Shown piece after piece: positions 171-43,809 of a stretch of DNA of 64,000 nt. The stretch covers positions 26,166,794 to 26,230,793 of the forward strand of contig OZ038450.1 of assembly GCA_964036195.1 (NCBI GenBank). The letters are read 5' to 3'. A program made the position numbers and the translations under genes. The notes beneath the pieces were generated by a model that was not told the DNA's origin, searched no databases, and saw only the letters and a list, made by a program, of their open reading frames with translations. How positions within the stretch are numbered: position 1 is the first letter of the stretch; every line of letters begins with the position of its first letter. This DNA is from Sphaerolaimus hirsutus. Its lineage: Eukaryota; Nematoda; Chromadorea; Monhysterida; Sphaerolaimidae.

Positions 171-557
171 TGTCAGATATTTTACGTTTTTACTAATTTT
201 ACTAGTTTCCGTTTTTACCACAAAAATACACCACTCGTCGAATTTGCCGCGGCGGAGAATTGTAAATTCCGGTCCTTTTGCGCTTTTAATTGCGTGCGTA
301 ATTAGATAAATGTTTGTTTTTATGGTACGGGGATTTTACACGCAAATCAGGAACAGCGCCAGTACCCCTTGGGGTCCTGACAAGTTCCCGAGGACGGACA
401 CGGCAACTTACCAATCCCTTTCGTAACTGCAGCCGGCGGTTTACTTTGAGTAACTGTTAATAAGCCGTAAATAAAATAAAGCCGTAATTAATAAAATTCA
501 AATTAAAATTCAAGCAGTTAGTATGCTTCAGGGGGACCAAGTTGGATTCACGGGAAC

Positions 558-563
558 TTTATT
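558..563 (-). promoter_or_regulatory. polyadenylation signal AATAAA in 3' LTR of copy A
   Basis: AATAAA on the minus strand, at the same LTR position in all four LTRs (also 14823-14828, 34360-34365 and 56715-56720). Conservation across diverged copies supports its use as the 3'-end processing signal of the element RNA. Confidence 0.55.
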
Positions 564-1515
564 TAGCAATATAATCAGAGTCAATTTCACAATAGCACAA
601 GTGAGTCGTATAGCCTCTAGTGGGTGAAAAAATGTAAAATCAGCGCGTTTTATAATCACAAAAAGTCTACCATAATAGAAATGAATACTAAATCTGAGAC
701 ACAACATTTAACCGTAATTAGAAAATTACAAGACAAAATCACTGATCACTGGAAAACCAATTAACATAGCGTACAAGGCACGGGAAAATTAATTGAATGT
801 GGTAAATAAGAAAATACAGACGTAAACTAAACCAAGCGTAAAGTAACTGTGATTAATATGACGTAATTAAAATAAAATTATCTCAGAGGTGAGTGTCATA
901 AACTGGGTTTCTATTCAGAGGTTATGGTACAATTTAGAGCAGGTGGTGTGACACGTGTTATCAACCTGCGCCCCTTTAGGTGAAAAATATTTTATAGCGC
1001 GCCTGACCAAGGCCACAGAAAGAACGCTCATTTGCGGGGGTTTGTTCAAGGTTATTGCATTGCCGGGTAAGGGTTGGAACTTCGGGCATGAACACACGCT
1101 ACAAAGACACTAGCACTTGCGAGTTCACCAATCACCCTGGGTGATGGGAATAATTAATTGGCACTGCTGTGCTCTTCACTGTAAACTGTGCTCTGCATGT
1201 GTCTTGCAGTCGCATGTCGACAATGATTGCCGTTTGCCACTTTTCCACCCATTACCTAGTCCTAAGTAAAAATGCACTTGGTCGGGGAATTTTCTGAATG
1301 TTATCTATCGGGGCGCCTAGGTGTTTAACAGAGTCGACACCTTTTAGCTTAACAGGAAACTTCAAAGCTTTTCTAACCCATTCCCAGACACTGCACCCTT
1401 TTGATCAAATATGTAAACTTGATAGAAACCTAAAAATTAACATTCGAAAGTACATATCAGAAAGTGCATTTGAAAAATGAAAATAATCACTTAATTAACT
1501 TAAAATGCGGGTAAC

Positions 1516-1794
1516 TTAATTAGCTAAAACAGGAAATGACACAATTAAAATCACACGGGAAGTAGTTACATAATTAACGGAAAAGAAAAAATACTTAATA
1601 AAATCATGGCCGCAGTAGTGCCCATTCGGGCGTACCGTCCTGGGGCTGCGGCCTTGTTGGCGGATTTGCAGTGCACAGCGAATTGCATGTTCACTGTGAC
1701 TTCCCTGTGCACCGCGGGCCGTCATTCGGTCACACACGGTCGTCCTTGAGTCATCAGAGTGTCTGCACAAAATTGTCGTTACGTTTTTATGCAT
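1516..1794 (-). CDS. small open frame in U3 of 3' LTR, function unknown
   Basis: 92 codons beginning MHKNVTTILCRHSDD, at the 5' edge of the LTR on the coding strand. The same-length frame is open in the other LTR at 15782-16060. A related, partly open frame occurs in the 5' LTR of copy B (33228-33428), sharing runs such as AQGSHSE and VRPNG. I recognise no domain. It may be a genuine small LTR-encoded protein or chance openness in U3. The region is deleted from the 3' LTR of copy B. Confidence 0.2.
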   Translation of the reverse strand: MHKNVTTILCRHSDDSRTTVCDRMTARGAQGSHSEHAIRCALQIRQQGRSPRTVRPNGHYCGHDFIKYFFFSVNYVTTSRVILIVSFPVLAN

Positions 1795-1821
1795 GATTGG
1801 CTAGCCATATTTCCACCTACA

Positions 1822-2396
1822 ATCCCACCAGCCATTAATTTTTTACCTCCGGGCTAAAAACAACATGTTCAGAAAAAGTGTTTTGCACCGTTTTCGGTTA
1901 TTCAAAAATCATGCCTTCTCTGCATTTTTCGGTGGATGGCCGTGGCAGTCACATGCCCTGGGGGTGCAAATATGGCTCGTCTTCATTCGAACTATGGCGT
2001 CAGCTTTCTGCTGTGCCAGCTTTTTGTGCTCGAAACTTCGAAATTTTGGTTCCCGCACAGGGCTCGATGTGAGAAAAAATTTTTTTCATTTATATTACAA
2101 AGACTAATTAATTAGAACTCTAATTGGGCCACTTCGCAGCATTGTGCCACTGCTGGACGGGCAGTTTGGGATCAACATTCAAGTTACCTGCTCGACCAAC
2201 GTGTCGCAGTTCGTGCGTGTGAAAATTGATCGTCAACAAGATTTCCTAATTATTTTCATGGAATATTAACAAGTATGTTTTAATCGCTCATTTTTTGTTA
2301 CAAAGTTGTCTGTTTCTCCTGATGACAAAAGTTGTGCATAAATTACTGCACCTTGAAACTTTATAATTGATTCTGACTAAAAAAAATTGTCTCGTA
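1822..2396 (-). other. 3' untranslated region and putative polypurine tract of copy A
   Basis: About 575 bases between the end of the helicase tail and the 3' LTR, alignable with 55331-55891 of copy B. No coding frame is evident on the element strand. Immediately before the LTR the minus strand reads GGCTGGTGGGAT, a weak purine-rich run in the position of a polypurine tract. A better run (CCCGGAGGTAAAAAATTAATGG on the minus strand) lies about 15 bases further away. Which one primes plus-strand DNA is unclear. Confidence 0.5.
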
Positions 2397-2720
2397 TCAA
2401 TTTTCACAATTACCATTTTCCATGTGGTGTTCTACCTGTTGCGCTGGAGCGTCCTCCGGTGGCAGCGGGATGGCCTCAACCGCGTCGTGGTGCTTGGGCG
2501 GTGGTGAGGGGGGCTCGGCCGCGTTCTGCAATGCCATGGCCGCCATGTCGTTGCTAATGGGGGAATAGTCTTCATTAGGGCGGTAAACTGGCTCAACTAC
2601 GGGCACCACCTCCTCTACCACCGGCACGACCTCCTCCCGCGCAGCCGCGGAAGAGTCAGAGCTTGAGGACGCAGTTTCTATATCAGATAGAACTTCCGCC
2701 TTCAGTTCTTCTTCAAGGGC
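2397..2720 (-). CDS. acidic C-terminal tail of the helicase protein (frame-shifted)
   Basis: About 105 codons in a different frame from the helicase body, overlapping its last few codons. It reads Ser/Glu-rich (SSSSDSSAAAREEV), then a conserved stretch with YSPISNDMAAMALQN, a proline-rich part, and ends MENGNCEN. Copy B has the same tail at 55040-55330 ending MENGNTEN, so the tail is conserved and presumably part of the protein. In copy A the link is broken by a deletion of roughly 70 bases relative to copy B, just after the GQIWGNVL motif. The function is unknown. The low-complexity acidic character suggests a flexible interaction segment. Confidence 0.6.
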   Translation of the reverse strand, partial: ALEEELKAEVLSDIETASSSSDSSAAAREEVVPVVEEVVPVVEPVYRPNEDYSPISNDMAAMALQNAAEPPSPPPKHHDAVEAIPLPPEDAPAQQVEHHMENGNCEN

Positions 2721-5700
2721 CAGAATCCCAGCACGTTTCCCCAGATTTGGCCCGATTTGTAAGAGTAAATTCGGTCGGCCATGTGCTCGACCGTCAGAAA
2801 CCGGTGGAAAAAAGTTGACCACAACATGGTCTCGGCGTTGGCCACCACTATGCGTACACATTTGGCGCGGGAGGTGGCTACGTTTCCCCGGGGCAACTCT
2901 GCTACAAATCCAACTCTACCGTACACCTTCTTGGGATCGGCATCCAGTTGGGTGGAGTCGGTTGGCGGGCTGCCGCGCACGCAGGAAATGATGACCACTT
3001 CCGCTTCACGGGCCTGAGCTTTGTCGGCGGTAATTACGCGGGTGGCCCAGTAGGCCGCGTCGTGTTCTGTATGGGCTACTAGTCGACTGATTAGGGCGCG
3101 CGCCTGCGCCGCATAAAAGCACACAATTAGCAAACTAGCGGGATCTGTGAGATCCGCCCAGGGTAGGGTGGGATCTTCCTTCACAGTGGCTACGAAATAG
3201 TCGTACAGGTGCAGGATGATGCGCAGTTCTTTCTTGTTGATAATTGACATGCCCTCTTTCGATTCGCAGCCCTGGTGGACCAGAGTCAATGACAGCATGA
3301 CGCCGTCCTCAAAGTCGCCAGGCGAGGGCAACATGGTGGCACCGTGCACTGCCGTGTCGCTGTAGGCGCGTAGCAGTCCATTGTACGCCACCACAGAGTT
3401 AGCCTGAATGAGCTGGCGATGCCCGCAGAACACTGTTTCCAAGTGAACCACGGGACATAATTGATACTGTGTGAGCCTATCAATGAGGGTGGGGTCGGGT
3501 TTTAGGACGGGCTCCACCCACTCTTGCACGCAAATCATACGCGTCAATTGCTTACTGTCTCCAAATAGAAGTAGCATGCCGTTCACTGGGAGCTGAGCCG
3601 CCTGAACCACGCTAATTACTGCAGCATCAGACGCCAAAGACGCTTCGTCAATAATTACCGCACACGCCGTCACACTTTTTATACGGGCGTCGTGGGCGGA
3701 GTCTAAAGTAACATGGATTTGACCGGGCTGCACCACTTCCAAGAACACCCGGTGCAGCCTGACCGTAGCCCTGACATTTTTAGACAGCGCCCTACGCAGC
3801 ACCTTACCCCAAAACCCCTGGTCAGCTAAACTAGCCTCTCCAGCCCGGGCGCCCGCCACACCTGCCTCGAAGTCGTCGAATGGCTGCTCGTCCCCATCTT
3901 CGGCAGTGAGAAATGGCACCTGTTCGGTCAGCTGCGCGCGTATAACGGCGTCGTCCGTGCAGTTGTTGATAATCTCGTCCACCAGCTCGTAGTCCTTCTT
4001 GGCGCCGTCGTACTTTTCCAGCGCTGCCGTCCATTCGGGGCTGAGGCGGACGATGTTGTGGCCGGTTTGCTGTGCTAGGGTGTGCAGGGTTGGTAATTGG
4101 GTTGCGGGGGTGGTGCTATAAGTAGCATCACTTTCCCACATGGGGCTCAAAACGCGCACCGGAAATGCCGCTCTTAATTTCAAAAATTCTTTGAAACCCT
4201 CCAGTTTTTGCATTTCAGAAAATGGCGTGTCAGCTATAGCGGTCCATTTCGCGCGTTCCCGCAGCAAAACTTCCAAAGCCCCAAAAATGTCCCGCTGCCC
4301 TAATTTATTCAGGTTGGTCAGGGCCCTGCGCGCTCCTTCGTCGGCCGCCGAGTTGACCGTGCACGTGATGAGCGTCAAATGGTATTTGGCGTTCGGCTGC
4401 TTGTCAGACGGCAAGTCGGAGCCCGCGCGTATCCTGGGTCTCGTGTTGTAGTAATTATAGCCGCGCGAACACACATACGCCAGTTGATTTTGTGTGGTCG
4501 TCTTCCCAGACCCGAAAGGCGAGTCACACATAATCCAAAGGGGTTTGCGCATGCGCACGGCTGTGATCACAGCTCCTAAAACTTCTACCTGTCCTTGTTG
4601 TGGCAAAAACTCACCTAATTTGGCCTGAATCATTTGTTCATTTTTTCCCCTGAATAATGATTCATACAGCTCATTAGCCTCGCGGCTAATTAGCGCCCAG
4701 TCAGTTTCATCATCCAGCAGACGCAAATTCAATAACACAGCTAATTGGATTTGCGCCTCCAGGGTGAGTACTTTTGACCCCTGGACCACTTTTGGCACCC
4801 AGCCTACCGGCGCCTTGTTTAGGGCGGCCTGGAGCGACCGCATGGTTCGGTCATAATTGGGCGAGTCGTTGGAACCGCACACCATGTACCGTCCACTCTC
4901 CAGGGTGCGAGGCAGCACTGATTGCGATGCTGTCGTGTCCAATTTCGCGCGCAGCATTGTGGTTGTTGGCTCTGACTCCACACTGGTGATTCTGACTGAC
5001 AAATTGGGGCTGCCCGCCGCTGGTTTGTCTTCGTGTGGTCGGGCCTGCACCAAACTCAACACTGACATGGGCGTCGCCTGGTTCAGTAACTGTGTCTGTG
5101 TATTTACCTCCTCCAGTAAACATATGCGCTGCTCTTCTGGTCCCTCAAAAGTGTCCGCTTGTAATTCTTCTGGGTCTGGGCGGCGCACCATAATGTCACA
5201 TGCAGTGCCCTGTGGCGTGTGCTCCCAGAACACATGTGCGCACACATCCGTTGCGCGTTTCGCCCGAAACCGCAAAAATGACTCGTTGTAGCAGTGGGCC
5301 GCTGCTAAAATACTCAATTTATACCTCAGAAATATGTCCATGCTGTCTCGGTTCTCTGTGTCTGGCTGGACGCCCGTTGTGCTGATGTCCTCGGCCGTGG
5401 CAACCTGCAGCCCGTACGCATGGCCGTAAAATTTGTCGCCAAACACGTCCAAATCATTCAGATCGTGATATTCGACGTGTGCCAGCCCCAACTGTCCAGC
5501 ACTCAAAGTTTCCACTCTGCTGTCACTCACATACTCGCGGTGCAAAATGACTAACTTTTCCGGCCCGGCATCGCCCCGCTCCGCCGCGCCCAGCGGTTCC
5601 AGATTCTTGTAATTTGACGGCGTGAAGGCCGCTCGCAGCCGCGCCGTTTTCCAGTCGCTTGTGTATGGCTGGTAGCCGGAAGTGTCGCCGCGCGTCAATG

Positions 5701-5917
5701 TACGTGCCGCTTGAGTGATGCGCCGTGTGCCCTGCGTACTCACTACCACTGGGGCGGCAACATTTAAGGGGCATTTTGTCTGATTACCCCATATCGCGAC
5801 GCCGGTGAACTCCCAGTACCGCGGGTTTTCTATTTTCTGTGCGATCGCGGTCGCCGAAAAACGCATTCCGTGGCGCACCAGGGGCAGAAACATCGAGGGG
5901 TGCTGTTTCTTGCGCAC
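2702..5917 (-). CDS. superfamily 1 (UPF1-like) helicase encoded by the retroelement
   Basis: A 1,071-codon frame between integrase and the 3' LTR. Helicase motifs run in order: Walker A SPFGSGKTTTQ (about residue 466), motif Ia with TLITCTVNSAADEGA (about 515), Walker B VIIDEAS (about 754), motif III LLFGDSKQLT (about 785), a motif IV-like QYQLCPVVHLETVF, motif V around ADKAQAREAEVVIISC, and motif VI GNVATSRAK (about 1015). This set fits SF1 enzymes of the UPF1/AAA_12 type, which unwind nucleic acid 5' to 3' using ATP. About 230 residues separate motifs Ia and II. The first 400 residues match nothing I know. Copy B has the homologue at 49594-53113, so it belongs to the element. The listed start is not the true one: homology continues upstream in another frame (5830-6299), so the N terminus is frame-shifted here. 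The last codons are also altered. Confidence 0.88.
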   Translation of the reverse strand: MRKKQHPSMFLPLVRHGMRFSATAIAQKIENPRYWEFTGVAIWGNQTKCPLNVAAPVVVSTQGTRRITQAARTLTRGDTSGYQPYTSDWKTARLRAAFTPSNYKNLEPLGAAERGDAGPEKLVILHREYVSDSRVETLSAGQLGLAHVEYHDLNDLDVFGDKFYGHAYGLQVATAEDISTTGVQPDTENRDSMDIFLRYKLSILAAAHCYNESFLRFRAKRATDVCAHVFWEHTPQGTACDIMVRRPDPEELQADTFEGPEEQRICLLEEVNTQTQLLNQATPMSVLSLVQARPHEDKPAAGSPNLSVRITSVESEPTTTMLRAKLDTTASQSVLPRTLESGRYMVCGSNDSPNYDRTMRSLQAALNKAPVGWVPKVVQGSKVLTLEAQIQLAVLLNLRLLDDETDWALISREANELYESLFRGKNEQMIQAKLGEFLPQQGQVEVLGAVITAVRMRKPLWIMCDSPFGSGKTTTQNQLAYVCSRGYNYYNTRPRIRAGSDLPSDKQPNAKYHLTLITCTVNSAADEGARRALTNLNKLGQRDIFGALEVLLRERAKWTAIADTPFSEMQKLEGFKEFLKLRAAFPVRVLSPMWESDATYSTTPATQLPTLHTLAQQTGHNIVRLSPEWTAALEKYDGAKKDYELVDEIINNCTDDAVIRAQLTEQVPFLTAEDGDEQPFDDFEAGVAGARAGEASLADQGFWGKVLRRALSKNVRATVRLHRVFLEVVQPGQIHVTLDSAHDARIKSVTACAVIIDEASLASDAAVISVVQAAQLPVNGMLLLFGDSKQLTRMICVQEWVEPVLKPDPTLIDRLTQYQLCPVVHLETVFCGHRQLIQANSVVAYNGLLRAYSDTAVHGATMLPSPGDFEDGVMLSLTLVHQGCESKEGMSIINKKELRIILHLYDYFVATVKEDPTLPWADLTDPASLLIVCFYAAQARALISRLVAHTEHDAAYWATRVITADKAQAREAEVVIISCVRGSPPTDSTQLDADPKKVYGRVGFVAELPRGNVATSRAKCVRIVVANAETMLWSTFFHRFLTVEHMADRIYSYKSGQIWGNVLGFWPLKKN

Positions 5918-6299
5918 AGATCCACCAGCTGGGTGGTCCGCTTGTCTCTAGCCGCTTTGGCCCGCTTATTTGAGTAATAGAAATACGGATATGCCTCATC
6001 CGCATTCACCCACTGCTCGTTTTCACTGAGTATCGCCATCGTTTGCTCAGAAATTCTCACATGGCATTGATACTCAACATGCCCATTGGCGCCCGTGTCA
6101 ATGTACACTTGGTCTACCCAACCTTCGAATTTCACTCTGCTGGGGTAGATTTCCGGTCCGTTCTGCATTTGCTGCGCGCGGTAAAGTTGCCGTGGAGGAA
6201 TGGTTCCGCCGCCGCAGGCACCATGCGTATTTGTTTCTTTGAGTTTGACGGGTGCTTGCGTTTGCGTTTGCGAGAGCGTTTGCGAGAGGCCGAAGCCAT
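5830..6299 (-). pseudogene. N-terminal part of the helicase protein, out of frame
   Basis: The likely start is the ATG at 6299-6297. The first codons (MASAS) are matched at the same place in copy B (49463). In copy A they lead into a very basic run (RKRSRKRKRK) resembling a nuclear localisation signal; copy B does not keep it. A frame change leads to a second segment (6168-5830) with GPEIYPS, VYIDTG and SEQTMAILSENEQW, which matches copy B at 49594-49850, then another frame change joins the main helicase frame. The domain is unknown to me. At least two indels break this region in copy A. Confidence 0.6.
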
Positions 6300-6510
6300 T
6301 ATAAATATGTCAATGTGATAAAATGATTAATTGCGAAGTTTTAATGAAAACTCGTGCGGTCCAGTTGCCCGTGGGCAAAAGGGGTGCACGAGCTTCCTAA
6401 AAACACACGCACATTTTCACACACACATCACGCTTTTTATACCTTGTGCTGGGTCGCGTAGCATGACGGCGGGGGTCGTAACGGCTAATTAATCGGGTAA
6501 TTAATCAATT
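6300..6510 (-). promoter_or_regulatory. gap between integrase and helicase with TATA-like box and splice acceptor
   Basis: About 210 non-coding bases. On the minus strand TATAAAAAG lies at 6441-6433, about 140 bases before the probable helicase ATG. A pyrimidine/GT-rich run ending TTTTTAG puts a strong splice acceptor at 6398-6397. Copy B keeps the acceptor (AG at 49348-49349), while its TATA is TAGAAAAAG (49295-49303). The helicase may therefore be made from its own transcript, either spliced from the leader, as retroviral env mRNAs are, or from an internal promoter. This is inference. Confidence 0.35.
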
Positions 6511-7734
6511 TTAGTCGTCACCGTATAATTCACTGTAAGAGGGGGGAATTAGATATTCACTGGTTGCCTTGCAACGATCTGCATGAACTACATATATTTT
6601 CCTATTAATATTGTTGAACAACGTCACTAATGGGTGGGCATAATCAATACACTCATACGGACCAATAAAGCGAGGCGCGAATTTCTTACTAGGGCCCGTC
6701 AACTGTGTAATACGCGGCGTGTATACGCGTACCGCTTGCCCGCGTTGCACATTTAATCGACGTGCACGGCGATTGGCGTAAAATTGTTCCTTTTGCTGCG
6801 CCCTTGCCAAAGCGGTGTGCGCAGCTTCGCGTGCTGTAGTCAGACGCGCGCCTAACTCATTTATAAGAGTGCGCTTATGCGGCAATGAGGGCAATGCCTC
6901 AGTGTCAGGGGGAGGCTCGATCATACGCTCCCACATGGACGCGGCAGGCTTGCCAAATAGCAACGCATAGGGGGTGGTTTGCAGAGACGGGTGTTTCGAC
7001 GTATTGTACGCATGTACAGCGGCTCCTAAATGTATGTCCCAATCGTCATGTGTACGATTTACGTAGTGGGATACTATTTCCATCAGGACACCATTCCTAC
7101 GTTCCACCATTCCATTACTCTTGGGGGTGTACGCAAAAGATGTGTGTTGGGTCGCATTCAAATATTGCAAAAGCTTGGCAAAAGTGCCCTCAGTAAAGCT
7201 AGGGGCGTTATCACTGAGTATAATAGCCGGTACGCTAAATATGGGTAAAATGTGCAATAAAAATGCGAATGATACTGTGTCTTGTTTTATGTCGGGAACG
7301 GGCACAGCAATTCCAAAACGAGTACACTGATCAACAAACACTAACACATGTCGGTTTCTGCGTTTTGTGGTTAGTAAAGGTCCTATTGCGTCTACTGCTA
7401 TCACATCACCTGGCCTTTTGGCTACCTGGCGGCACACCATTTGAGTTCGCATTGCCGCTCTGAGACCTTTCTTGGCGTTGCACGACGGGCAAGTAGCAAC
7501 CCAGCGCGTACTTTCCGGCCGCATTCCTGGGAACCACGCAAACTCCTGCAATCTTTCAAATGTTTTTATTATTCCTAAATGGCCCGCCGTGGGATGATTG
7601 TGAGCTAATTCTAATACGAATGGAACTAAATCCGACGGAATACACACTGGGTCGTATAACTGTATGCCTGGTATCTGGGACGTTCCCGCCTGGCAACGTA
7701 GTAGACCGTTGATCAATAAAATACGGCGCGGCAC
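6511..7734 (-). CDS. integrase (Ty3/Gypsy type)
   Basis: A 407-codon frame. The N-terminal zinc finger has HNHPTAGH followed by CPSC (about residues 45-90). The catalytic core has Asp in AVDAIGPL, Asp in LSDNAPSF and Glu in GMVERRNG, with 35 residues between the last two (DD35E). A GPY/F-type module (RFIGPYECIDY) follows near residue 365. It joins element DNA ends to the host target. Homology upstream continues in another frame (7740-8220) after a 1-base deletion, so the Met-like start at 7734 is an artefact of the break. The catalytic triad is intact. Copy B carries a mutated homologue at 48050-49250. It ends about 210 bases before the probable helicase start (6299). Confidence 0.92.
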   Translation of the reverse strand: MPRRILLINGLLRCQAGTSQIPGIQLYDPVCIPSDLVPFVLELAHNHPTAGHLGIIKTFERLQEFAWFPGMRPESTRWVATCPSCNAKKGLRAAMRTQMVCRQVAKRPGDVIAVDAIGPLLTTKRRNRHVLVFVDQCTRFGIAVPVPDIKQDTVSFAFLLHILPIFSVPAIILSDNAPSFTEGTFAKLLQYLNATQHTSFAYTPKSNGMVERRNGVLMEIVSHYVNRTHDDWDIHLGAAVHAYNTSKHPSLQTTPYALLFGKPAASMWERMIEPPPDTEALPSLPHKRTLINELGARLTTAREAAHTALARAQQKEQFYANRRARRLNVQRGQAVRVYTPRITQLTGPSKKFAPRFIGPYECIDYAHPLVTLFNNINRKIYVVHADRCKATSEYLIPPSYSELYGDD

Positions 7735-7739
7735 TGTAA

Positions 7740-8252
7740 AAATTATCTGCGCGACACACTTCTATAGTTGTGGCTATGTATGGTTCTTCTGCTTGTAATT
7801 GCTTCAACTTATCAACTGGAGTCATGGGAGGTAGCGCCATGATTGTACTGCGCTTGGTTACACTCGTTAAACCCGGAGCAACTTCATTTCCGGCTCCTGA
7901 ACCACCAGCCATTGTTCCAGTTCCAGGCGCTTCCGCATTCCGCTCTCGCAGCCCGGGAGGCTCCGCCTCTTTTCGCCCGCGCGTCCGGTCGCTGATTGGT
8001 CGCAGTAACTCCGCCTCCTCATTTACGTCGCCTCGCTCGCTGATTGGCTGGTACGTGTGTCTGGTACGCTGGCTTGTCGTGCGGGATAGCGATTTCACGG
8101 CACGTAACTTGTGCAAACTGCTCAAAGGCCTCATCCAGGTCCTTTTTCTCGTTGAATACCACTGGCGCGTCCTGCCTTCTAGATAATGCATCTGCTAATT
8201 CATTGCTTTTACCCCTCAAATGTTTGAACGTGATTTGGTATGGTGTAATTGC
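7740..8252 (-). pseudogene. pol segment between RNase H and integrase, broken
   Basis: Two overlapping frames (8219-8019 and 8191-7740) carry the end of RNase H (RGKSNELADALSRRQDAPVV), a hydrophilic linker (EEAELLRPISDRTRGRKEAE) and the region before the integrase zinc finger (MALPPMTPVDKLKQLQAEEP). Copy B matches at 47501-48034. One frame change near 8050 and a 1-base loss near 7720 are private to copy A. It would normally be part of the Pol polyprotein. Confidence 0.65.
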
Positions 8253-8594
8253 TCAAGCAAACTTATGTAGCATGGCGTGCGGGGTGGTCTCTAAATTGGG
8301 ATTCTTTACCCATGATATACTCTTAGCGTCGGTCCAGACTTCAAAGGGTCGTCCCGCCAGATAACAGTGCCAATTTCGTATACTTTCATAAATCGCACAC
8401 GCTTCCAATGAAATTGCTGGCCACTTGCTTTGGGTTGCACCTAACTTCCGGCTGTAAAAGGCACACGCGTGTAGTATTTTCTCGTCCTCTGCTCGTTGTG
8501 CTAACACGCCTGCAACAGCGATTTTAGAGGCATCTGTAATAATTATAAACATACGCTTGGGATCAGGAAACTGCAAACACGGGCTTCCTAACAA
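8253..8594 (-). CDS. RNase H domain of pol
   Basis: 114 codons with the Ty3/Gypsy RNase H pattern: ITDASKIAVAGVL (first catalytic Asp), SLEACAIYES (Glu) and WTDAKSISWV (Asp). It removes RNA from the RNA-DNA hybrid during reverse transcription. The frame ends at TGA where copy B reads TTG (Leu), a point nonsense private to copy A; homology resumes directly after it. A roughly 28-base deletion just upstream separates it from the RT connection. Confidence 0.85.
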   Translation of the reverse strand: MLGSPCLQFPDPKRMFIIITDASKIAVAGVLAQRAEDEKILHACAFYSRKLGATQSKWPAISLEACAIYESIRNWHCYLAGRPFEVWTDAKSISWVKNPNLETTPHAMLHKFA

Positions 8595-8932
8595 CGCTTC
8601 CTTGAGTTTATGAAAAGTTTCGATGTCAAATCCACTGGGGTGTCACTGTTGTAATTTTCCCTCGGTCCCGTACGCGTGAGATTTGACAGGGGTACGGCCA
8701 GTTCTGCGCATCTATGAATCATGCGTCTAAAAAAACCTATAGCTCCTAGAAAACCCTTAACCTCTTTTACGATAGTGGGCACCGGCCAGTCCTGAATTAT
8801 GTGCCGTTTATCATCCGGCACGCACACGCCGTCACGGCCAATCATAAATCCCAAAAAACGTACGGCTGTGACGCGTGCGAAAAAACACTTTTTTGGACTA
8901 ATTTTGAAATTATTTTTAATTAACCTTTCCAA
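8588..8932 (-). CDS. reverse transcriptase C-terminal part (thumb/connection)
   Basis: Contains ISPKKCFF, VRFLGFMIGRDG and VKGFLGAIGFFRRMI, the typical Gypsy RT motif E and thumb sequences that follow the YxDD palm. It is separated from the palm frame by a private 1-base deletion near 8945 and from RNase H by a short deletion. Copy B has the same region open through RNase H (46777-47643). Confidence 0.85.
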   Translation of the reverse strand: MERLIKNNFKISPKKCFFARVTAVRFLGFMIGRDGVCVPDDKRHIIQDWPVPTIVKEVKGFLGAIGFFRRMIHRCAELAVPLSNLTRTGPRENYNSDTPVDLTSKLFINSRKRC

Positions 8933-8940
8933 TACTTGCC

Positions 8941-9231
8941 CTATGTCATATAAATGGGTGTACCATTTGCACTGTAAATTAGTAAATCGTCAATGTATAA
9001 TAACACATTTCGATGTATTAATCCGGCCATAGCTAATTCAAAACAACGTTGCGCTAAACTAGGAGAGCATTTTAATCCCATTGGTAAACGTTTCAGTTGA
9101 AACTGCCCAAACACATTCCTAAATGACGTAATGTGTCGATCATCTGGATGCAGAGCAATGTTATAGAAAGCTTGATTTATGTCAGCGCTGCTAAAAATAC
9201 TTGCAGCTGCATAAAGATTCGACTGTTTCAT
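8941..9231 (-). CDS. reverse transcriptase palm with YIDD active site
   Basis: Contains SSADINQAFYNI (motif A, first catalytic Asp), LPMGLKCSPSLAQRCF (motif B) and LLYIDDLLIY (motif C, YxDD). The upstream RT fingers are in ORF2 (9191-11914), which stops at TAG (9193-9191) just where this frame takes over one base further on. Copy B has the identical arrangement at 46480-46692, so the break is not private. See the entry at 9188-9199. Confidence 0.88.
   Translation of the reverse strand: MKQSNLYAAASIFSSADINQAFYNIALHPDDRHITSFRNVFGQFQLKRLPMGLKCSPSLAQRCFELAMAGLIHRNVLLYIDDLLIYSANGTPIYMT
9188..9199 (-). other. shared +1 frame break in RT (TAT TTT TAG C)
   Basis: ORF2 ends TAT-TTT-TAG. Skipping one T after TTT gives the frame that continues RT motif A. 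Copy B has exactly the same bases (46512-46521). Known +1 recoding sites also place a slippery codon before a stop. The alternative is an old mutation inherited by both copies. It falls within the RT domain, which is unusual for a recoding site. Confidence 0.5.
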
Positions 9232-11914
9232 CTAAGCGGGGTAATGGAAATTGGGGAGCGTGCAAAACAGCGTTCAGGCGTCTGTAATCAATTACCATCC
9301 GCTTTGATCCATCCGGTTTGGATACCACCAGCGTGGGGGCGCAATACGGGCTCGTACTGGGTTCCACTATGTCGTGCTCAATGAGGCATCTCAAATGATT
9401 TTCTAAGTATTGCTGATCATCCAGACTCAATCGGTACATTCTGCAGGCAATTGGTTTTTTGTCCACTAGTTGCAACCGGTAGTCCACTAATTCACTGTAG
9501 CCGATGTCATACTTGTGTCGAGCAAAAGCTTCTTTGTATTGCAAAATCACCTTTTTCAGTTCCTCCCTTCGTTCGTCCGTCAAAGTTTCTGGTACTGTAA
9601 ATTCCATTACGTGTCCATCTGGGCATGCAACTTGCAGTGGGGGCCCTAATTTGTCTTCAGCTACTTTGGGAGGAGGTTCAGTCGCTTGGACTTGCCTACA
9701 CACATCTCTGTCATAACACTGCTTTACCCATTCAGCGGGGGGGTCTCCAGGCTTCACCTTCAGCACGCAATCCACTGGCTCGACCACGGCAATGCGCTGT
9801 CCTACCTGTAACACCACGGGATGATTTCGCACATTTGCACATCTCACCTGAAACACGGGGGCACTGGTTTCATAGGCCGCTGAAGCAGCCATAACTCCAC
9901 AGCGTTCGCCTACTGTGTCCAATCCCATAACAGTGAATAACGTTTCATCCAAAGGAGCAGATAATTTCGCCGTTACTAGCGCTTCATGTCTAGCCAGAAT
10001 TTCTATTTTTTCATTCACAATAGCGTAAATTCTGCGCTGCTGAACTTCTGGGTCGGGGTTATCAAATGGAATTATCGCGTTAGCCGTGGGAATTCGTAGT
10101 TCCCTTGCAGGTAAATCCACTACCATATGCCGCAATACGTCTGCGCCAATTAGAATTTCACCAGCTAACCCATTCACCGCCTGAAACACAATCCCGAAGG
10201 TGTGGTTTCCCATCGTTACAGGTATTTCCATTTGTCCCAATACCAAAAGTTTTGAATCCGCTGCACACCTGAGGGCTCCAATAGGCGATACTTCATCAGG
10301 CTTGGTAGCCTTTTCCCTGTGTTGCATCAACACGTCTCTGTTGCACAATGAGCGCATGGCGCCGGTGTCCAGCAGGCACCTTCGATATTCTCTCCCATCG
10401 ATGGTTATGGTAATGGACGGACTGTAATACACATGCACAATTTCTTCACGTCGATTGGCTACTTGATTTATGTTGTCCCTCTCTTCCGGCGAGAATGTAA
10501 TCATGCATACCGATTCTTCTTCCAGATCGCATTTCCTGTTTATACTGTATTGAATAGCGGGAAAATTACGCGCGCCCGTGAGTGCGGGCATGCCACTTGG
10601 CATTCCCACGCATGGGTTAATTACCGTTCGTACCTTCGCCTGTTCGTTAGGGCGTTCCTCAGCCAGCTCAACAATCATGTTCAGCTTTTCTTCTTTCTTT
10701 GGTCGTTTCTTGATTTTTTCCTTTGCTCGATTCACCAAAGTCACAGCCGTTTCCGGCGCTGCAGCCATGAGTGCGGCTAGTAAATATTGCATGGTGACCA
10801 GCGCACATATCAGGTAAATCCATACTTGTAACCAGGTACGCCAGGTGTCAAAATCCCACCATCCCAGCGCCAATACCGACTTTGCCAAGGTTCGATGCCT
10901 TTGCATGTGTGATTCCACCTTCGGCTCCGCTCCCTGCGTAATTTGCCGCACAATTGAATATGCATGCCATACGTCATTTAGGGTGGTCGTTGGCAATAAT
11001 TCTGACAAATTGTACATGGTCGTGGCGGCAAAAATCTGATGATGCACATCCTTAACCTTTTCCTGTTGCCATTTCTGCGGGAAACTGTGTGTGTTATACA
11101 TGGGTAAATGTTCCAGGCCGCCTACCTCCGGCAGATATCTGTACCATTGTCCATTTAACATTACCACACGATTGTGCGCATTGGTGCATGATCCTGGGAT
11201 CGCTTGAAAGTGCAAAATGTTTGTCAACCTGTTCATGTGTAACGTCACATTCTGCCCATGCACACGAACTTGCACAGGTACTGTTTCATAACATTCTGGG
11301 GACTTTTCCTCTTTCATTATCATGTATGTTTTGACCGCGAAACATTTGTGAACCAAAAATCCATCCGGCGCAGGTTTAGCAATTATTTCATTATCGTTCA
11401 TGTACCAACGGGCTGTTGTAGTCGCATGTTCACTCATAGCCAGGCGCACAAACTCTTGAAAGTGCTGCACGTTCTTGCAGGTGGCCACAGCCTGTGCACG
11501 CATGGTTTGTTCTGCTGTTTCATATACCACCTGCATGCTAGCTGCTAATTGTCCTGCGCTCACTATCCCTAACGTGGGTCGACCTTGCGCTCTTTTTTGT
11601 CTGATGTTTCGAATCACTGCCTTTTCGAATGGCGCCACTACGATATCCTGATCTGATTTCCATAATTTGATGCCGCATGATTCAACCTCTTCATGTGCTC
11701 TGAAAGACAGTGATAGCGTGTGATCATCGGCTAGCCAGATATCCTGTCTAATGCGTCCATGCATTTCACGCCATTTTTCGTATGGACATTCTGCCTTCGG
11801 GTTCAGTTTCCATGTTAATTGGCTACCGTCCTCCAGCGTGCATGCACCCATTTCATAATTGCACTTGCTAACCTCACCCAGCGTACTTTGCATGGTACTG
11901 GCTCCATATCTCAT
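9191..11914 (-). CDS. ORF2: envelope-like region, aspartic protease and RT fingers
   Basis: 907 codons. Residues 1-350 are Cys-rich with N-glycosylation sequons (NVTL, NLSE) and include GACTLEDGSQLTW and CPYEKW. A long hydrophobic segment (WLQVWIYLICALV and on, about 357-385) is followed by a basic tail (KEKIKKRPKK), as in a membrane-anchored viral glycoprotein. A retropepsin-like protease follows (CLLDTGAMRSL, about 512-520, then ILIGADVL), then RT fingers (RMVIDYRRLN, about 870), ending at a TAG inside RT. ORF1 lies upstream in the same frame, separated by TGA plus four codons. An envelope-like module upstream of protease is not the usual order. I cannot place the glycoprotein in a named fusion class. 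Copy B matches at 43806-46520. Confidence 0.85.
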   Translation of the reverse strand: MRYGASTMQSTLGEVSKCNYEMGACTLEDGSQLTWKLNPKAECPYEKWREMHGRIRQDIWLADDHTLSLSFRAHEEVESCGIKLWKSDQDIVVAPFEKAVIRNIRQKRAQGRPTLGIVSAGQLAASMQVVYETAEQTMRAQAVATCKNVQHFQEFVRLAMSEHATTTARWYMNDNEIIAKPAPDGFLVHKCFAVKTYMIMKEEKSPECYETVPVQVRVHGQNVTLHMNRLTNILHFQAIPGSCTNAHNRVVMLNGQWYRYLPEVGGLEHLPMYNTHSFPQKWQQEKVKDVHHQIFAATTMYNLSELLPTTTLNDVWHAYSIVRQITQGAEPKVESHMQRHRTLAKSVLALGWWDFDTWRTWLQVWIYLICALVTMQYLLAALMAAAPETAVTLVNRAKEKIKKRPKKEEKLNMIVELAEERPNEQAKVRTVINPCVGMPSGMPALTGARNFPAIQYSINRKCDLEEESVCMITFSPEERDNINQVANRREEIVHVYYSPSITITIDGREYRRCLLDTGAMRSLCNRDVLMQHREKATKPDEVSPIGALRCAADSKLLVLGQMEIPVTMGNHTFGIVFQAVNGLAGEILIGADVLRHMVVDLPARELRIPTANAIIPFDNPDPEVQQRRIYAIVNEKIEILARHEALVTAKLSAPLDETLFTVMGLDTVGERCGVMAASAAYETSAPVFQVRCANVRNHPVVLQVGQRIAVVEPVDCVLKVKPGDPPAEWVKQCYDRDVCRQVQATEPPPKVAEDKLGPPLQVACPDGHVMEFTVPETLTDERREELKKVILQYKEAFARHKYDIGYSELVDYRLQLVDKKPIACRMYRLSLDDQQYLENHLRCLIEHDIVEPSTSPYCAPTLVVSKPDGSKRMVIDYRRLNAVLHAPQFPLPRLDETVESLCSCKYF

Positions 11915-11929
11915 TCGTACTTCCCCTCA
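11915..11929 (-). other. in-frame UGA between ORF1 and ORF2
   Basis: ORF1 stops at TGA and the same frame continues GGG GAA GTA then a codon and ATG of ORF2. Copy B has TGA GGG GAA GTA CAA ATG at the equivalent site (about 43791-43808). Retention of the stop and its 3' context in two diverged copies fits either stop-codon readthrough or reinitiation at the ATG. Confidence 0.45.
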
Positions 11930-14359
11930 AAACAGCCCGCAGTGGGGTGTGGTTTCAATCACCCATTTGCAACAATACAGTCCATGTCCTGAATAGCTAA
12001 CATTGGTGGGGTATTGAGTGTCCCATGCGTTGTCCAGGTCATTCACAGGTGTCATGGGCCCATCATTGCATTTGTGGTATTTAATCATGCCTTCACATTT
12101 GGCTGCGCCCACTGACCGAGGGTTGGAATCAAACTTTTCCAGCGTGACATCGCCCCAAAAGTTCTGATACGTCCTTGCAGTTCTGGTAGAGGCCACACAC
12201 CTGTGAGCTGCCGCACGATATTCTACCATATTTCGCTTGTAAATTGTCAACGTCAACTTTCGTGGCCATTCTAATGACGCCGTGGTGTCTGCAATAGCTG
12301 TGCAATTCGGCAGGGGGGGGTACGTGTATAGATCGTAGTGGTCCGTCAAGTCACTGCACAGCAATGGAAACAAGGGCATGGTTGTCGCGCCCGCGCCCGG
12401 TAATAAGGCTAATCCCATTATAATTAACCCAACTGCCAATACAAAAAACAGTGACTGTGCGACCTGGGGCATGTATGGGGGTTCCGAATAAGCGCGCGGC
12501 GCGGGGCGCACCCCTTCCTCAGCAGACAGAAAACCCATATACCTATCTACTTGGTTGCTGGATCCAGTGCGCGGCGGCAGCGCAGCCGGCGTGGCATACA
12601 GAAAGGGGTCCAAACTGATATTCATGAGCACGTCCAAGGGCACCTCAGTCAGCATGTCCGAGTGGTCGTCTGCAGGGCAATTAGGCCACAGCGTACAGTC
12701 CGTTTCTCTCAAGTCATGCATTCCTATCCTGCGTAAAAAGGCCAACCAGGTAGTTCGAAACAAATAACCTTTTTCGGTTCGCATGTATGCCCATGGTTTG
12801 ATCCAGAATTCACGCTCTTGCGCAAGCACATGCATTCCCGCAGTGCGCTGCGGTTCCTCGGATGGCTCTGGAACCAGTTCGTCAGGTTCCTCTGCTTCTA
12901 ATTTCAAACCTTGCATCACAGGGATTAATTTATTGACGGGACGTATCATCATGCAGCGGTCATCTACGCGCACCCGCATGGTCATTCCAGTCGTACTGGT
13001 CACTCGTGTGGGGTTCAGTGACTCTACGTGGGGGTTACTTACCTGTACCGGTTGCATGTTGTATTGTTGCATGCGCCCATCCGGTCCCATAGCCATCCAG
13101 GCCGGCGGCGCTTGATATGCCATCATCTGCGGTTGCATGGGCATATCACCAGCCCTCTGTACCGTCTGCGCTGTCTGCGCGGGCATCGGCTGAGCTGGTT
13201 GCCACTGCGGGTATGCATATTGCATGGGCATCATACCTGGCTGCATCGCTTGGGCTTGGTCATTCCTCTGATAACCGCCACGTTGTCCTCCTCCGCGCCC
13301 ACATCCATTTCCTCTGAACGCTCCACCGCCGCGGCTCCTTTTGAGGTATTGTTCCCTTTGTTCGGGGGTGAGTTTGGGACATTCGTATCTAATGTGCTCT
13401 TCAGAGCCACATTCCCACCATCCTTTGTCAAATTTACGTGGGGGCAATTTAGGGGGGTCCCTATTCAGTCCCAAAAGTTTACCTTCCAACGCGCCCAGTT
13501 GCGCTAATTTCTTCGCTATCTCATGATGCACAGAGTCAAATTTAGCAACACTCTCAGTCATTTTCTGTTCCATTGCCTCTAATGTTTTGTCGGCCTGGGA
13601 CAGCAGTCCAGCCATTGTAGGCATATTTAAAGCCATCAACCTGTCCATCACCTTATCGGTAGCGCTGGCAACCACATCCTGTTTGGATTTTTCTCCCTTA
13701 TTCTGGCTCTGTTCTGCTTCCAAAAAGCTCTCCTGCGCACGTGCGTTGTCAACCATCTCTTTCCAAGTGATAGAAGCCGTGACAGGTACATTGCGCCGAA
13801 TCTCATTCCTCAGTCCTCCATGGAATTTTATCATGCATGTGTCACCTCGTTTTTCATGACCCATGCCTGGATAGGCGTGTTTTATCAATTTTTCCAAACG
13901 TACCGCCCATTCCAGTACCGACTCATCTGCGCCCTGTCGCGTCTCGAAAATCTCTCTCTGCGCATGGTGCTTATCATTTGGATTTTCATAGAACTTTTCC
14001 AACACCTGCATCATATCCTTGTAGTTCAGGTCGCGCAATTCTCTGTATCGAGTGTTAAAAATGGCCCTTGCACTGCCTTTCAAAAACAATTTTACCAACG
14101 GCTTCCGTTCCGGTATTTTTATACGCAGCGCGTCACATACCGTGTCCCAGCTCCTTCTCCACTCCCTGAAACCCTCATTCGGTTTGCCGCGAAAATATCC
14201 ACATTGTTGTGCCAGGGCCGTAATAACCGCTGCATTGCTTTGTTCTAATTGCCAATTTTGTCCCAGGTCCGTAGGCATTCCCACCTCAGATGCAGCTGAT
14301 GAGCTCCTTGAGGACGCCGGCGAGCGGGATCGAGCGCGTCTCTGCGTTACAGCTCTCAC
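11927..14359 (-). CDS. ORF1: Gag (5'-truncated) fused to envelope-like N-terminal region
   Basis: 810 codons opening at GTG, with no upstream ATG before a stop. The first in-frame Met is near residue 28. Residues 30-230 are a retroelement capsid (FREWRRSWDTVCDALR, YENPNDKHHAQREIFETR). A zinc knuckle at about 320-333 has lost its first Cys (WWECGSEEHIRYEC, where copy B has CWEC). An RGG-rich and Gln/Met/Pro-rich stretch follows (345-440). After a charged region comes a hydrophobic segment (SLFFVLAVGLIIMGLALL, about 635-655) and a Cys-containing ectodomain-like part with NCT and NVS sequons, up to TGA. The last part resembles the start of a glycoprotein that continues in ORF2. About 1.45 kb of gag present in copy B (34790-36240) is missing here. 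It may act as a Gag-Env precursor. Confidence 0.82.
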   Translation of the reverse strand: MRAVTQRRARSRSPASSRSSSAASEVGMPTDLGQNWQLEQSNAAVITALAQQCGYFRGKPNEGFREWRRSWDTVCDALRIKIPERKPLVKLFLKGSARAIFNTRYRELRDLNYKDMMQVLEKFYENPNDKHHAQREIFETRQGADESVLEWAVRLEKLIKHAYPGMGHEKRGDTCMIKFHGGLRNEIRRNVPVTASITWKEMVDNARAQESFLEAEQSQNKGEKSKQDVVASATDKVMDRLMALNMPTMAGLLSQADKTLEAMEQKMTESVAKFDSVHHEIAKKLAQLGALEGKLLGLNRDPPKLPPRKFDKGWWECGSEEHIRYECPKLTPEQREQYLKRSRGGGAFRGNGCGRGGGQRGGYQRNDQAQAMQPGMMPMQYAYPQWQPAQPMPAQTAQTVQRAGDMPMQPQMMAYQAPPAWMAMGPDGRMQQYNMQPVQVSNPHVESLNPTRVTSTTGMTMRVRVDDRCMMIRPVNKLIPVMQGLKLEAEEPDELVPEPSEEPQRTAGMHVLAQEREFWIKPWAYMRTEKGYLFRTTWLAFLRRIGMHDLRETDCTLWPNCPADDHSDMLTEVPLDVLMNISLDPFLYATPAALPPRTGSSNQVDRYMGFLSAEEGVRPAPRAYSEPPYMPQVAQSLFFVLAVGLIIMGLALLPGAGATTMPLFPLLCSDLTDHYDLYTYPPLPNCTAIADTTASLEWPRKLTLTIYKRNMVEYRAAAHRCVASTRTARTYQNFWGDVTLEKFDSNPRSVGAAKCEGMIKYHKCNDGPMTPVNDLDNAWDTQYPTNVSYSGHGLYCCKWVIETTPHCGLF

Positions 14360-14410
14360 CTGATTTGTTCCAGCTGCCGACGGGAAAACTTTATGACTTG
14401 CTTAGGAAAC
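14360..14410 (-). other. shortened leader of copy A
   Basis: Only about 70 bases separate the 5' LTR from the gag frame. Homology to copy B stops after a stretch reading AAGTTTTC and resumes near the copy B position 36243, so about 1.45 kb of leader and gag is deleted. The minus strand contains CAG|GTGAGA at 14362-14354, a good splice-donor match. Confidence 0.4.
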
Positions 14411-14428
14411 CACTCGCTACGCTACCAG
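14411..14428 (-). other. primer binding site of copy A
   Basis: Two bases after the 5' LTR the minus strand reads TGGTAGCGTAGCGAGTGG, which begins with the TGG expected to pair with a tRNA CCA end. Copy B has the identical 18 bases at 34742-34759. The tRNA partner is not assigned. The run also looks like the 5' end of tRNA-Leu (GGTAGCGTGGCCGAG type). Confidence 0.6.
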
Positions 14429-14430
14429 TT

Positions 14431-16087
14431 GTCAGATATTTTACGTTTTTACTAATTTTACTAGTTTCCGTTTTTACCACAAAAATACGCCAACGCCACT
14501 TGTCGAATTTGCCGCGGTGGAGAATTGAAAATTCCGGTCCTTTTGCGCTTTTAATTGCGTGCGTAATTAGATAAATCTTTGTTTTTATGGTACGGGGATT
14601 TTACACGCAAATCAGGAACAGCGCCAGTACCCCTTGGGGTCCTGACAAGTTCCCGAGGATGGACACGGCAACTTACCAATCCCTTTCGTAACTGCAGCCG
14701 GCGGTTTACTTTGAGTAACTGTTAATAAGCCGTAAATAAAATAAAGCCGTAATTAATAAAATTCAAATTAAAATTCAAGCAGTTAGTATGCTTCAGGGGG
14801 ACCAAGTTGGATTCACGGGAACTTTATTTAGCAATATAATCAGAGTCAATTTCACAATAGCACAAGTGAGTCGTATAGCCTCTAGTGGGTGAAAAAATGT
14901 AAAATCAGCGCGTTTTATAATCACAAAAAGTCTACCATAATAGAAATGAATACTAAATCTGAGACACAACATTTAACCGTAATTAGAAAATTACAAGACA
15001 AAATCACTGATCACTGGAAAACCAATTAACATAGCGTACAAGGCACGGGAAAATTAATTGAATGCGGTAAATAAGAAAATACAGACGTAAACTAAACCAA
15101 GCGTAAAGTAACTGTGATTAATATGACGTAATTAAAATAAAATTATCTCAGAGGTGAGTGTCATAAACTGGGTTTCTATTCAGAGGTTACGGTACAATTT
15201 AGAGCAGGTGGTGTGACACGTGTTATCAACCTGTGCCCCTTTAGGTGAAAAATATTTTATAGCGCGCCCGACCAAGGCCACAGAAAGAACGCTCATTTGC
15301 GGGGGGTTTGTTCAAGGTTATTGCATTGCCGGGTAAGGGTTGGAACTTCGGGCATGAACACACGCTACAAAGACACTAGCACTTGCGAGTTCACCAATCA
15401 CCCTGGGTGATGGGAATAATTAATTGGCACTGCTGTGCTCTTCACTGTAAACTGTGCTCTGCATGTGTCTTGCAGTTGCATGTCGACAATGATTGCCGTT
15501 TGCCACTTTTCCACCCATTACCTAGTCCTAAGTAAAAATGCACTTGGTCGGGGAATTTTCTGAATGTTATCTATCGGGGCGCCTAGGTGTTTAACAGAGT
15601 CGACACCTTTTAGCTTAACAGGAAACTTCAAAGCTTTTCTAACCCATTCCCAGACACTGCACCCTTTTGATCAAATATGTAAACTTGATAGAAACCTAAA
15701 AATTAACATTCGAAAGTACATATCAGAAAGTGCATTTGAAAAATGTAAATAATCACTTAATTAACTTAAAATGCGGGTAACTTAATTAGCTAAAACAGGA
15801 AATGACACAATTAAAATCACATGGGAAGTAGTTACATAATTAACGGAAAAGAAAAAATACTTAATAAAATCATGGCCGCAGTAGTGCCCATTCGGGCGTA
15901 CCATCCTGGGGCTGCGGCCTCGTTGGCGGATTTGCAGTGCACAGCGAACCGCACGTTCACTGTGACTTCCCTGTGCACCGCGGGCCGTCATTCGGTCACA
16001 CACGGTCGTCCTCAAGTCGTCGGAGTGTCTGCACAAAATTGTCGTTACGTTTTTATGCATGATTGGCTAGCCATATTTCCACCTACA
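14431..16087 (-). repeat. 5' LTR of copy A
   Basis: Direct repeat of 171-1821. On the coding strand it starts at 16087 (TGTAGGTGG) and ends at 14431 (CTGACA), followed by the primer binding site. It should hold the element promoter, but I could not single out a convincing TATA box. AATAAA lies at 14828-14823. Confidence 0.95.
15782..16060 (-). CDS. small open frame in U3 of 5' LTR, function unknown
   Basis: 92-codon frame equivalent to 1516-1794, differing at a handful of residues (for example SERAV for SEHAI). Both LTR copies keep it open. No recognised domain. Confidence 0.2.
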   Translation of the reverse strand: MHKNVTTILCRHSDDLRTTVCDRMTARGAQGSHSERAVRCALQIRQRGRSPRMVRPNGHYCGHDFIKYFFFSVNYVTTSHVILIVSFPVLAN

Positions 16088-34739: not shown

Positions 34740-34741
34740 AC

Positions 34742-34759
34742 TGGTAGCGTAGCGAGTGG
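34742..34759 (+). other. primer binding site of copy B
   Basis: TGGTAGCGTAGCGAGTGG two bases after the 5' LTR, identical to copy A over the 18 bases. A tRNA ending in CGCTACCA would pair with its start. Confidence 0.6.
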
Positions 34760-34974
34760 TTTCCTAAGCAAGTCATCAAGTTTTCTGTTGGGGGCGCCTG
34801 ATCAACGCCTCTACAAAAAACGGCTTCACGGATAACGAATCACCCCAAAGGGAATTGAGATCAAGAGGACCAGCAAGCTTACAAGGGGACAATATAGAAC
34901 AGGTTTGGCATGCGGCATTGGAAAAGCAAAATCAAGCATGTATACGCGTGCGACAGTGAAAAGCTGGGCGAGAA

Positions 34975-37368: not shown

Positions 37369-37508
37369 TGTTAGTTCCCTGATATGGGATTGATTTGATT
37401 ACAATGTGATTTCCTCTGATCTGAGTATTTATAGAGTAGAAACGTAACAGTAGACACGATGCGACACCCCAAATAAATGGCAACAAACCAACAGTCTTCA
37501 CGTAAACA
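37369..37508 (+). repeat. possible short 5' LTR or promoter region of nested element
   Basis: Starts TGTTAGTTCC and could end at TAAACA (37508). TATTTATAG and AATAAA give the promoter-then-polyA order of an LTR. ACTGGTGGACGAGCTG follows and could serve as a primer site. With no second copy in the window this stays a guess. Confidence 0.35.
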
Positions 37509-37651
37509 ACTGGTGGACGAGCTGCACTCGCAAGCTGTTACAGTCAGTAGACTGTCGTCGCGTCATTTGCCGCCCGTCAAAGCGGCAAATAAAAACAAAA
37601 AAGGTAAAACCTAAAGGTTAGTTGTAACCAACAACGTAAAAACAACTACCC

Positions 37652-43430: not shown

Positions 43431-43809
43431 CATTGTGGATACGACAGCGTCACTGGAAAGGCCGCGGAAGTTGACGTTGACAATCTATAAGCGAAATATG
43501 GTAGAATATCGAGCAGCAGCCTACAGGTGTGTGGCTTCCACCAGGACTGCGAGAACGTATCAAAACTTCTGGAGCGATGTCACGCTGGAAAAGTTTGATT
43601 CTAAACCCAGATCGGTGGGAGCGGCTGAATGTGAAGGAACAATTAAATACCACAAATGCAATAATGGACCCATGACACCTGTGACCGATTTAGACAATGC
43701 ATGGGACACGCAAAACTGCACCAACATGACTTATTCAGGGCATGGAATATATTGTTGCAAATGGAAACGACGCCACACTGTGGACTTTTTTGAGGGGAAG
43801 TACAAATGA
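43431..43809 (+). pseudogene. envelope-like ectodomain, end of ORF1 equivalent
   Basis: Matches the last 120 residues of ORF1 in copy A (LTLTIYKRNMVEYRAAA, GHGIYCCKW). A net indel just after CCKW shifts the frame, so this piece runs on to the TGA overlapping the ORF2 ATG. In the original frame the TGA GGG GAA GTA context of copy A is preserved. Confidence 0.75.

Follow-up and report, generated by a model that had tools for sequence, protein, structure and literature searches.

Gypsy elements of orchids and long terminal repeat (LTR) elements of rotifers carry an additional open reading frame (ORF) for a captured enzyme, and several of these enzymes act on nucleic acids, as the available parts of the reports describe (PMC9289625, PMC5408684). 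Insect long interspersed nuclear elements (LINEs) and Copia fusions carry superfamily 1 (SF1) helicases with conserved motifs. The accessible text derives them from plus-strand RNA viruses and places them in LINE ORFs or in fusions with Copia RNase H or integrase pieces (PMC5563155, PMC6338049). Human immunodeficiency virus type 1 (HIV-1) is described in the extracts at hand as encoding no helicase and exploiting cellular ones (PMC3484045), and as recruiting UPF1 for export of its genomic RNA (PMC4693258). The locus described here differs from the insect cases in carrying a separate UPF1-like ORF of 1323 amino acids in a Gypsy-type element. It is located in a 64,000-nucleotide stretch of the nematode Sphaerolaimus hirsutus (GCA_964036195.1, contig OZ038450.1, positions 26,166,794 to 26,230,793), referred to as the window. 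One LTR element family is present in the window with two copies, A on the minus and B on the plus strand, which are about 81% identical over the main internal stretch. The helicase is almost certainly a regular, selected gene of this family. A preliminary description of this DNA stated that LTR elements usually encode no helicase; this needs a qualifier, as viral-type SF1 helicases fused to Copia pieces are in print in the part of the literature seen (PMC5563155).

Occurrence of the helicase gene

The location of the helicase between integrase and 3' LTR was borne out for A and B by the reading frames and by Pfam AAA_12 matches. The gene limits agree with the preliminary description: the ATG lies at 6299 in A and at 49463 in B, and the last stop ends at 2397 and 55330, respectively. 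The length of about 1,100 residues given there is too short, as open copies have 1323 codons. In A, the gene is divided among four open segments that lie in changing frames (6132-6326, which includes the ATG, 5830-6309, 2702-5947 and 2397-2915). In B, two pieces match AAA_12, one over and one under the cut-off. The B gene is enlarged by about 2 kb of additional DNA located between 53043 and 55112, and a repeat therein recurs at 62099-62199. The family is large, and A and B are decayed members of it.

The searched genome comprises 348 Mb on 762 contigs. Its animal nature is borne out by 32 matches to wnt, a gene group not known outside animals; the 14 controls of the search tool were prokaryotes. 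From a protein search for the helicase, in which the best 43 of 587 candidates were scored, 30 loci including A were taken. A helicase frame of at least 1300 amino acids is present in 26 loci, the same start in the main frame in 24, and a length of exactly 1323 codons from the shared start in 19. One of the open copies encodes the 1323-residue protein P0018. No identical pair of helicases occurs among the 19 compared copies. In a genome-wide search for AAA_12, the best 150 of 454 candidates were scored. The two best-scoring places were set aside as host genes, and the other 148 were counted as family by score and match extent and not by individual reading. An open frame of at least 1300 amino acids is found in 99 of these 148 places; many full-length copies beyond those of the window are thus open.

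The integrase leads to the same gene. Among the best 100 of 2617 integrase candidates, 94 are followed at 2-12 kb by an AAA_12 match in the same orientation, and in 87 of the 94 the distance is 3.04-3.05 kb. The remaining six have no listed match in this range. One of them is window copy A, which has the helicase and scores below the best 150; for another (C38), a match is listed farther off, about 16 kb downstream. Twenty of the 100 copies, the first in rank that are absent from the list of 43 helicase places, were read directly. Helicase sequence was present in all of them, covering the expected residues in 18 and an earlier part of the gene in two, and a stop was present in two of the 20. 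The ranking favours well-kept copies of the family, and the fractions 94/100 and 99/148 do not extend to the old, decayed ones.

Selection and inheritance

Substitutions between A and B in 1061 helicase codons are distributed as 133, 71 and 347 over the codon positions 1, 2 and 3. The helicase reading frame is kept far beyond chance. The ratio of non-synonymous to synonymous substitutions (dN/dS) between A and B is 0.113 over these 1061 codons, with codons at gaps, shifts or stops excluded, and 0.164 for the short N-terminal piece at 5830-6309. The two other frames served as shifted-frame controls and yielded 0.87-2.76, with 1.08 and 2.09 for the main helicase frame; the selection signal is therefore frame-specific. 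Comparison with three other copies gave 0.078-0.085 for A and 0.106-0.113 for B.

Polymorphism was analyzed in 19 open copies (171 pairs), after 11 of the 30 loci had been dropped (six without a start in the main frame, five of other lengths). Mean non-synonymous diversity (pN) is 0.0102 and mean synonymous diversity (pS) 0.134, a pN/pS of 0.076. The N-terminal part has a pN/pS of 0.078 and the core one of 0.057. Variants common to at least two of the 19 copies comprise 279 synonymous and 24 non-synonymous changes. Selection on the gene within the family, suggested by the preliminary description, is confirmed by the pN/pS of 0.076 and the A-B dN/dS of 0.113. The contrary pattern named there, family members without the helicase and a dN/dS near 1, was not observed.

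Helicase and integrase distances are correlated with a Mantel r of 0.857 in 18 copies (12 of 30 loci dropped), a value reached by 0 of 2000 permutations. The distances of the N-terminal part and the core correlate less well (0.60), so some recombination is possible. The helicase gene occurs in nearly all copies examined and is inherited with the integrase, and its lineage has been under strong purifying selection.

Type of helicase

The protein P0018 matches Pfam AAA_12 with 5.9e-25 and 88.4 bits (cut-off 27). AAA_11 reaches 19.8 bits, below its cut-off of 27, and AAA_30 is likewise below its own. The viral-type profile Viral_helicase1 gave E=0.06 and 13.6 bits, below the cut-off of 21. Motifs which we take to be I (residues 596-605), II (884-894), III (912-923), V (1091-1112) and VI (1139-1149) are present, with a spacing of about 280 residues between I and II. 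Among 19 copies, motif VI is invariant, and each other of the eight motif stretches varies at one to three columns. The preliminary claim that all SF1 motifs are readable in both window copies held for I, II, III, V and VI, apart from one residue within the core of motif V that differs in B. The profile matches support an assignment to the UPF1-like group of SF1, with the cellular UPF1/SEN1/IGHMBP2 type and not viral SF1 helicases as nearest named relatives. A distant viral or element origin may still lie behind the gene.

Close relatives were not retrieved. In a set of 5.8 billion sequences, the helicase had no homologue at E 0.001 (7995 candidates scored) or at E 10 (7994), and the integrase had 15 distant matches. 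Viral contigs contained no relative of the helicase or of pol. A search of phage sequences gave one weak match (E 4e-3), and PHROGs one family of unknown function (2.8e-5). In the PDB, the N-terminal part matched 3C-like proteases weakly (E 0.08 to 1.5), which was taken as chance.

Several observations weigh against the mechanism proposed below for this helicase. PDB matches are weak, with 3.1e-6 for a "5'-3' RNA helicase-like protein" and 0.02 for UPF1, and with a profile of the family core as query they weaken to 0.0062 and 0.21. The approximately 590 residues ahead of motif I match no Pfam family. An AlphaFold prediction of the 676-residue core from 12 alignment rows (eight long, nearly alike ones and four pieces of B) had a mean predicted local distance difference test score of 30.7, and the model was not used. 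Lysine replaces the glutamate of motif II in one or more of the 19 open copies, so that some open copies may be inactive. The A-B dN/dS of the helicase exceeds the values of gag (0.051) and of protease, reverse transcriptase and RNase H (0.04-0.069) and is similar to that of the integrase (0.115); the two glycoprotein parts have 0.041 and 0.067. Conservation of the acidic C tail is loose (pN/pS 0.160 in the 19 copies), and the A-B ratio of the stretch 2397-2915, 0.43, is indistinguishable from that of a shifted frame (0.38). Variants of single copies (253 synonymous, 117 non-synonymous) are less constrained than shared ones, a pattern that decay following insertion would produce.

Expression and possible function

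In 24 of the 30 loci, A included, the helicase ATG is preceded by a T-rich tract that ends in TTTTTAGG and begins 104-124 nt upstream; these are 24 of the 26 loci with a recognised ATG. The integrase stop is located about 200 nt before this ATG. Given the resemblance of this tract to a 3' splice site, a spliced RNA is the probable source of the helicase, as it is for env in retroviruses. Judged from this acceptor-like site, the gene is probably a spliced third ORF.

In the proposed mechanism, a Ty3/Gypsy-type envelope-bearing element would have acquired a UPF1-like SF1 helicase as a regular third gene. The protein, translated from RNA spliced at the acceptor-like site upstream of its ATG, would move along the long genomic RNA of the element itself as an ATP-driven translocase. 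It could keep this RNA stable and exportable, and prepare it for packaging and reverse transcription by remodelling it or by stripping off proteins. In this way, the element would supply for itself a function for which HIV-1 relies on UPF1 and other helicases of its host. The conserved N-terminal part of about 590 residues is probably a targeting or ribonucleoprotein-binding module. As a whole, the mechanism of a spliced messenger and a helicase acting on the element's own RNA has an even chance of being correct. A wider reading, that of a lineage of endogenous, enveloped Gypsy-type retroviruses with an essential helicase of their own and no more dependence on host helicases for the genomic RNA, is put forward tentatively and is somewhat improbable. 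A self-carried helicase would make testable what a helicase adds to reverse transcription and to the fate of genomic RNA, and many open copies are available in one genome.

The UPF1-like core is also compatible with a decay antagonist. Nonsense-mediated decay targets RNAs with stops far ahead of their end, and a long multi-ORF RNA would be such a target; the protein could shield it as a competitor of UPF1. A UPF1-type N-terminal Cys/His domain was not matched in residues 1-590, which contain few Cys and His, and a strict UPF1 mimic as considered in the preliminary description is therefore less likely. Two near-identical exons of the host, presumably UPF1, are only 26% and 28% identical to the helicase, so the gene is not a recent copy from the host. 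Retention of the catalytic motifs would be unnecessary for a passive decoy. A role as decay antagonist is unlikely on these grounds.

Suppression of silencing, by unwinding double-stranded element RNA or disturbing the loading of small RNAs, is a less probable alternative still. Retroelement-borne SF1 helicases acted as weak suppressors when tested in a plant system, and such a role has been proposed for the viral-type helicases of insect LINEs, according to the available sections (PMC6338049, PMC5563155). These precedents are of the viral type, and the present helicase remains under the cut-off of the viral-type profile.

A DNA-side role in strand displacement, plus-strand synthesis or cDNA processing before integration appears more improbable again. 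Some SF1B helicases of the IGHMBP2 group act on both RNA and DNA, and the NCBIfam model of the IGHMBP2 family (TIGR00376) matches the frame of A with 7e-12, far below the cut-off of the model. Nothing specific points to DNA, and no nuclease domain was matched in the Pfam scan of P0018. A functionless fragment of a host helicase, captured and carried as a neutral passenger, would fit the broken state of A and B and is refuted by the open copies (at least 1300 amino acids in two thirds of the family-like places among the best-scoring candidates), by dN/dS and pN/pS and by the AAA_12 matches downstream of nearly all best-ranked integrase copies.

Structure of the element copies

Element A is 15.9 kb in length, and the family element about 16 kb (Table 1). 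The LTRs of A (1651 and 1658 bp) are 98.25% identical, with a Kimura two-parameter distance of 0.0135; that of the B LTRs is 0.052 over 1093 aligned sites. Different sites and target duplications (TGTA for A, ATAG for B) confirm the independent insertion reported earlier. The domains occur in Pfam in the order reverse transcriptase (RT), RNase H (RH) and integrase (IN), and the best PDB match is Ty3 Gag-Pol (3.5e-56); the match to the protease (PR) is weak and below the cut-off. By its LTRs, the target duplication of a few bp and the PR-RT-RH-IN order with Ty3-like RT and RH, the element is classified as Ty3/Gypsy-like.

Table 1. Positions of element features in the window (TSD, target site duplication)
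Feature	Position	Strand	Remarks
Helicase gene of A	2397..6299	-	Frame-broken; main open frame 2702-5947; Pfam AAA_12 2.4e-22 on 1081-residue frame
Motif I (Walker A) of A	4493..4522	-	
Motif II (Walker B) of A	3626..3658	-	
Motif III of A	3539..3574	-	
Motif V of A	2972..3034	-	
Motif VI of A	2861..2893	-	
Splice-acceptor-like site of A	6396..6403	-	T-rich tract, then AG/G; starts 104 nt before helicase ATG
Helicase gene of B	49463..55330	+	Broken by several stops and shifts
Splice-acceptor-like site of B	49343..49350	+	
Element A, whole	171..16087	-	LTRs 171-1821 and 14430-16087; TSD TGTA at 167-170 and 16088-16091
Element B, whole	33144..57093	+	First LTR 33144-34740; second LTR end 57093; TSD ATAG
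gag, zinc knuckle and first glycoprotein part of A	11927..14401	-	Retrotrans_gag 1.7e-5; zinc knuckle weak (0.03, 0.1)
Second glycoprotein part, protease and first RT part of A	9191..11926	-	RVP 0.055, weak; RT matched to Ty3
Candidate UUU-UAG shifty stop inside RT, A	9190..9199	-	Also in L046 and L048-L051
Candidate UUU-UAG shifty stop inside RT, B	46512..46521	+	
Second RT part and RNase H of A	8148..9231	-	Broken; aligned to B 46711-47643, where RT/RNase H are matched by Pfam
Integrase of A	6511..7761	-	Integrase_H2C2 1.9e-15; rve 5.5e-10
Nested insert in B	37369..42490		Foreign to the family

A fusion glycoprotein of the mononegavirus type is encoded in frame between gag and protease (window 9191-12499, minus strand; L031-L045). 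The profile Monjiviricetes_fusion matches A with 2.5e-6 and 26.2 bits, just under the cut-off of 27. Another family copy reaches 2.2e-7 and 29.7 bits, over the cut-off, within an open piece of 1000 codons. The 684-residue glycoprotein block contains a hydrophobic N-terminal stretch, a second one near residue 547, 20 Cys and four N-glycosylation motifs. Open stretches of at least 900 codons are found in 11 of 15 pieces, and some reach the DTG of the protease. The glycoprotein pN/pS is 0.059 in nine copies (six of 15 pieces dropped). The presence of such a gene raises the possibility that the element is an infectious endogenous retrovirus or derives from one. Programmed readthrough at an in-frame glycoprotein stop common to A and B was considered and rejected. 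The stop is absent in all 14 other copies that cover the site (the 15th piece did not cover it), which indicates decay, and neither of the two RNA folds was better than shuffles.

ORF1 ends within the RT at UUU-UAG in seven of seven copies examined, and ORF2 follows directly behind in the +1 frame. This arrangement fits a +1 frameshift at a shifty stop. The site is a candidate for a programmed frameshift joining ORF1 and ORF2, in an unusual place.

The nested insert in B holds a single open frame for gag, protease, RT and RNase H (P0002), together with 18-bp tandem repeats. It has TGTT...AACA ends and an apparent 5-bp duplication; neither an integrase match nor terminal repeats were found in it. 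At another family copy (L052, C9:9604000-9613999), two long minus-strand open frames of a different element (977 and 1170 amino acids) are located inside or adjoining the copy. Large palindromes, 72-96% self-complementary, occur in the window at 32098-32920, 62508-63029, 24491-24820 and 60531-60966; the one at 62508-63029 consists of two 260-nt arms and a 2-nt spacer. A tandem repeat of about 572 bp in three copies is present at 20397-22075, with parts 98-99% identical.

Comparison with known systems

Cellular helicases of the UPF1/SEN1/IGHMBP2 type share the AAA_12 domain and the SF1 motifs with the family helicase. The latter differs in having no matched Cys/His domain, in the spacing of about 280 residues between motifs I and II and in its unmatched N-terminal part. 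The literature search, which covered titles and the beginnings of abstracts among the papers listed, with subscription journals and repeat libraries outside it, revealed no Gypsy element with a UPF1-like helicase.

The giant Burro elements of planarians (PMC6431247) are also Gypsy-like, large, of high copy number and equipped with extra modules. They, too, encode an env-like glycoprotein between gag and protease, in the same frame, and it matches mononegavirus fusion glycoproteins. Burro exceeds 30 kb in length, in contrast to the 15.9 kb of copy A. It has MATH, BIR, BCL2, ankyrin and dUTPase-like modules, and no helicase is named in the Burro section; such modules had no Pfam match in the scanned pieces of the present element (the N-terminal gag piece L047 lay outside the scan). 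By description, a further difference is the UPF1-like helicase after the integrase. Anakin, a BEL/Pao element with a chuvirus glycoprotein, is another retroelement with a glycoprotein of the mononegavirus type, as the available text states (PMC7642597). It belongs to another superfamily, and the word "helicase" is absent from that paper. Three other BEL elements have an envelope-like gene downstream of the polyprotein, according to the same text (PMC7642597). The enzymes captured by the orchid and rotifer elements are an AlkB demethylase, a DEDDy exonuclease or a GDSL esterase, and not a helicase, in the parts of the reports available (PMC9289625, PMC5408684). To these known captures by LTR elements, the present family adds a cellular-type RNA enzyme. 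As far as the sources extend, LTR elements with captured accessory genes are known, and a UPF1-like helicase as a separate third ORF in an enveloped Gypsy-type element is new.

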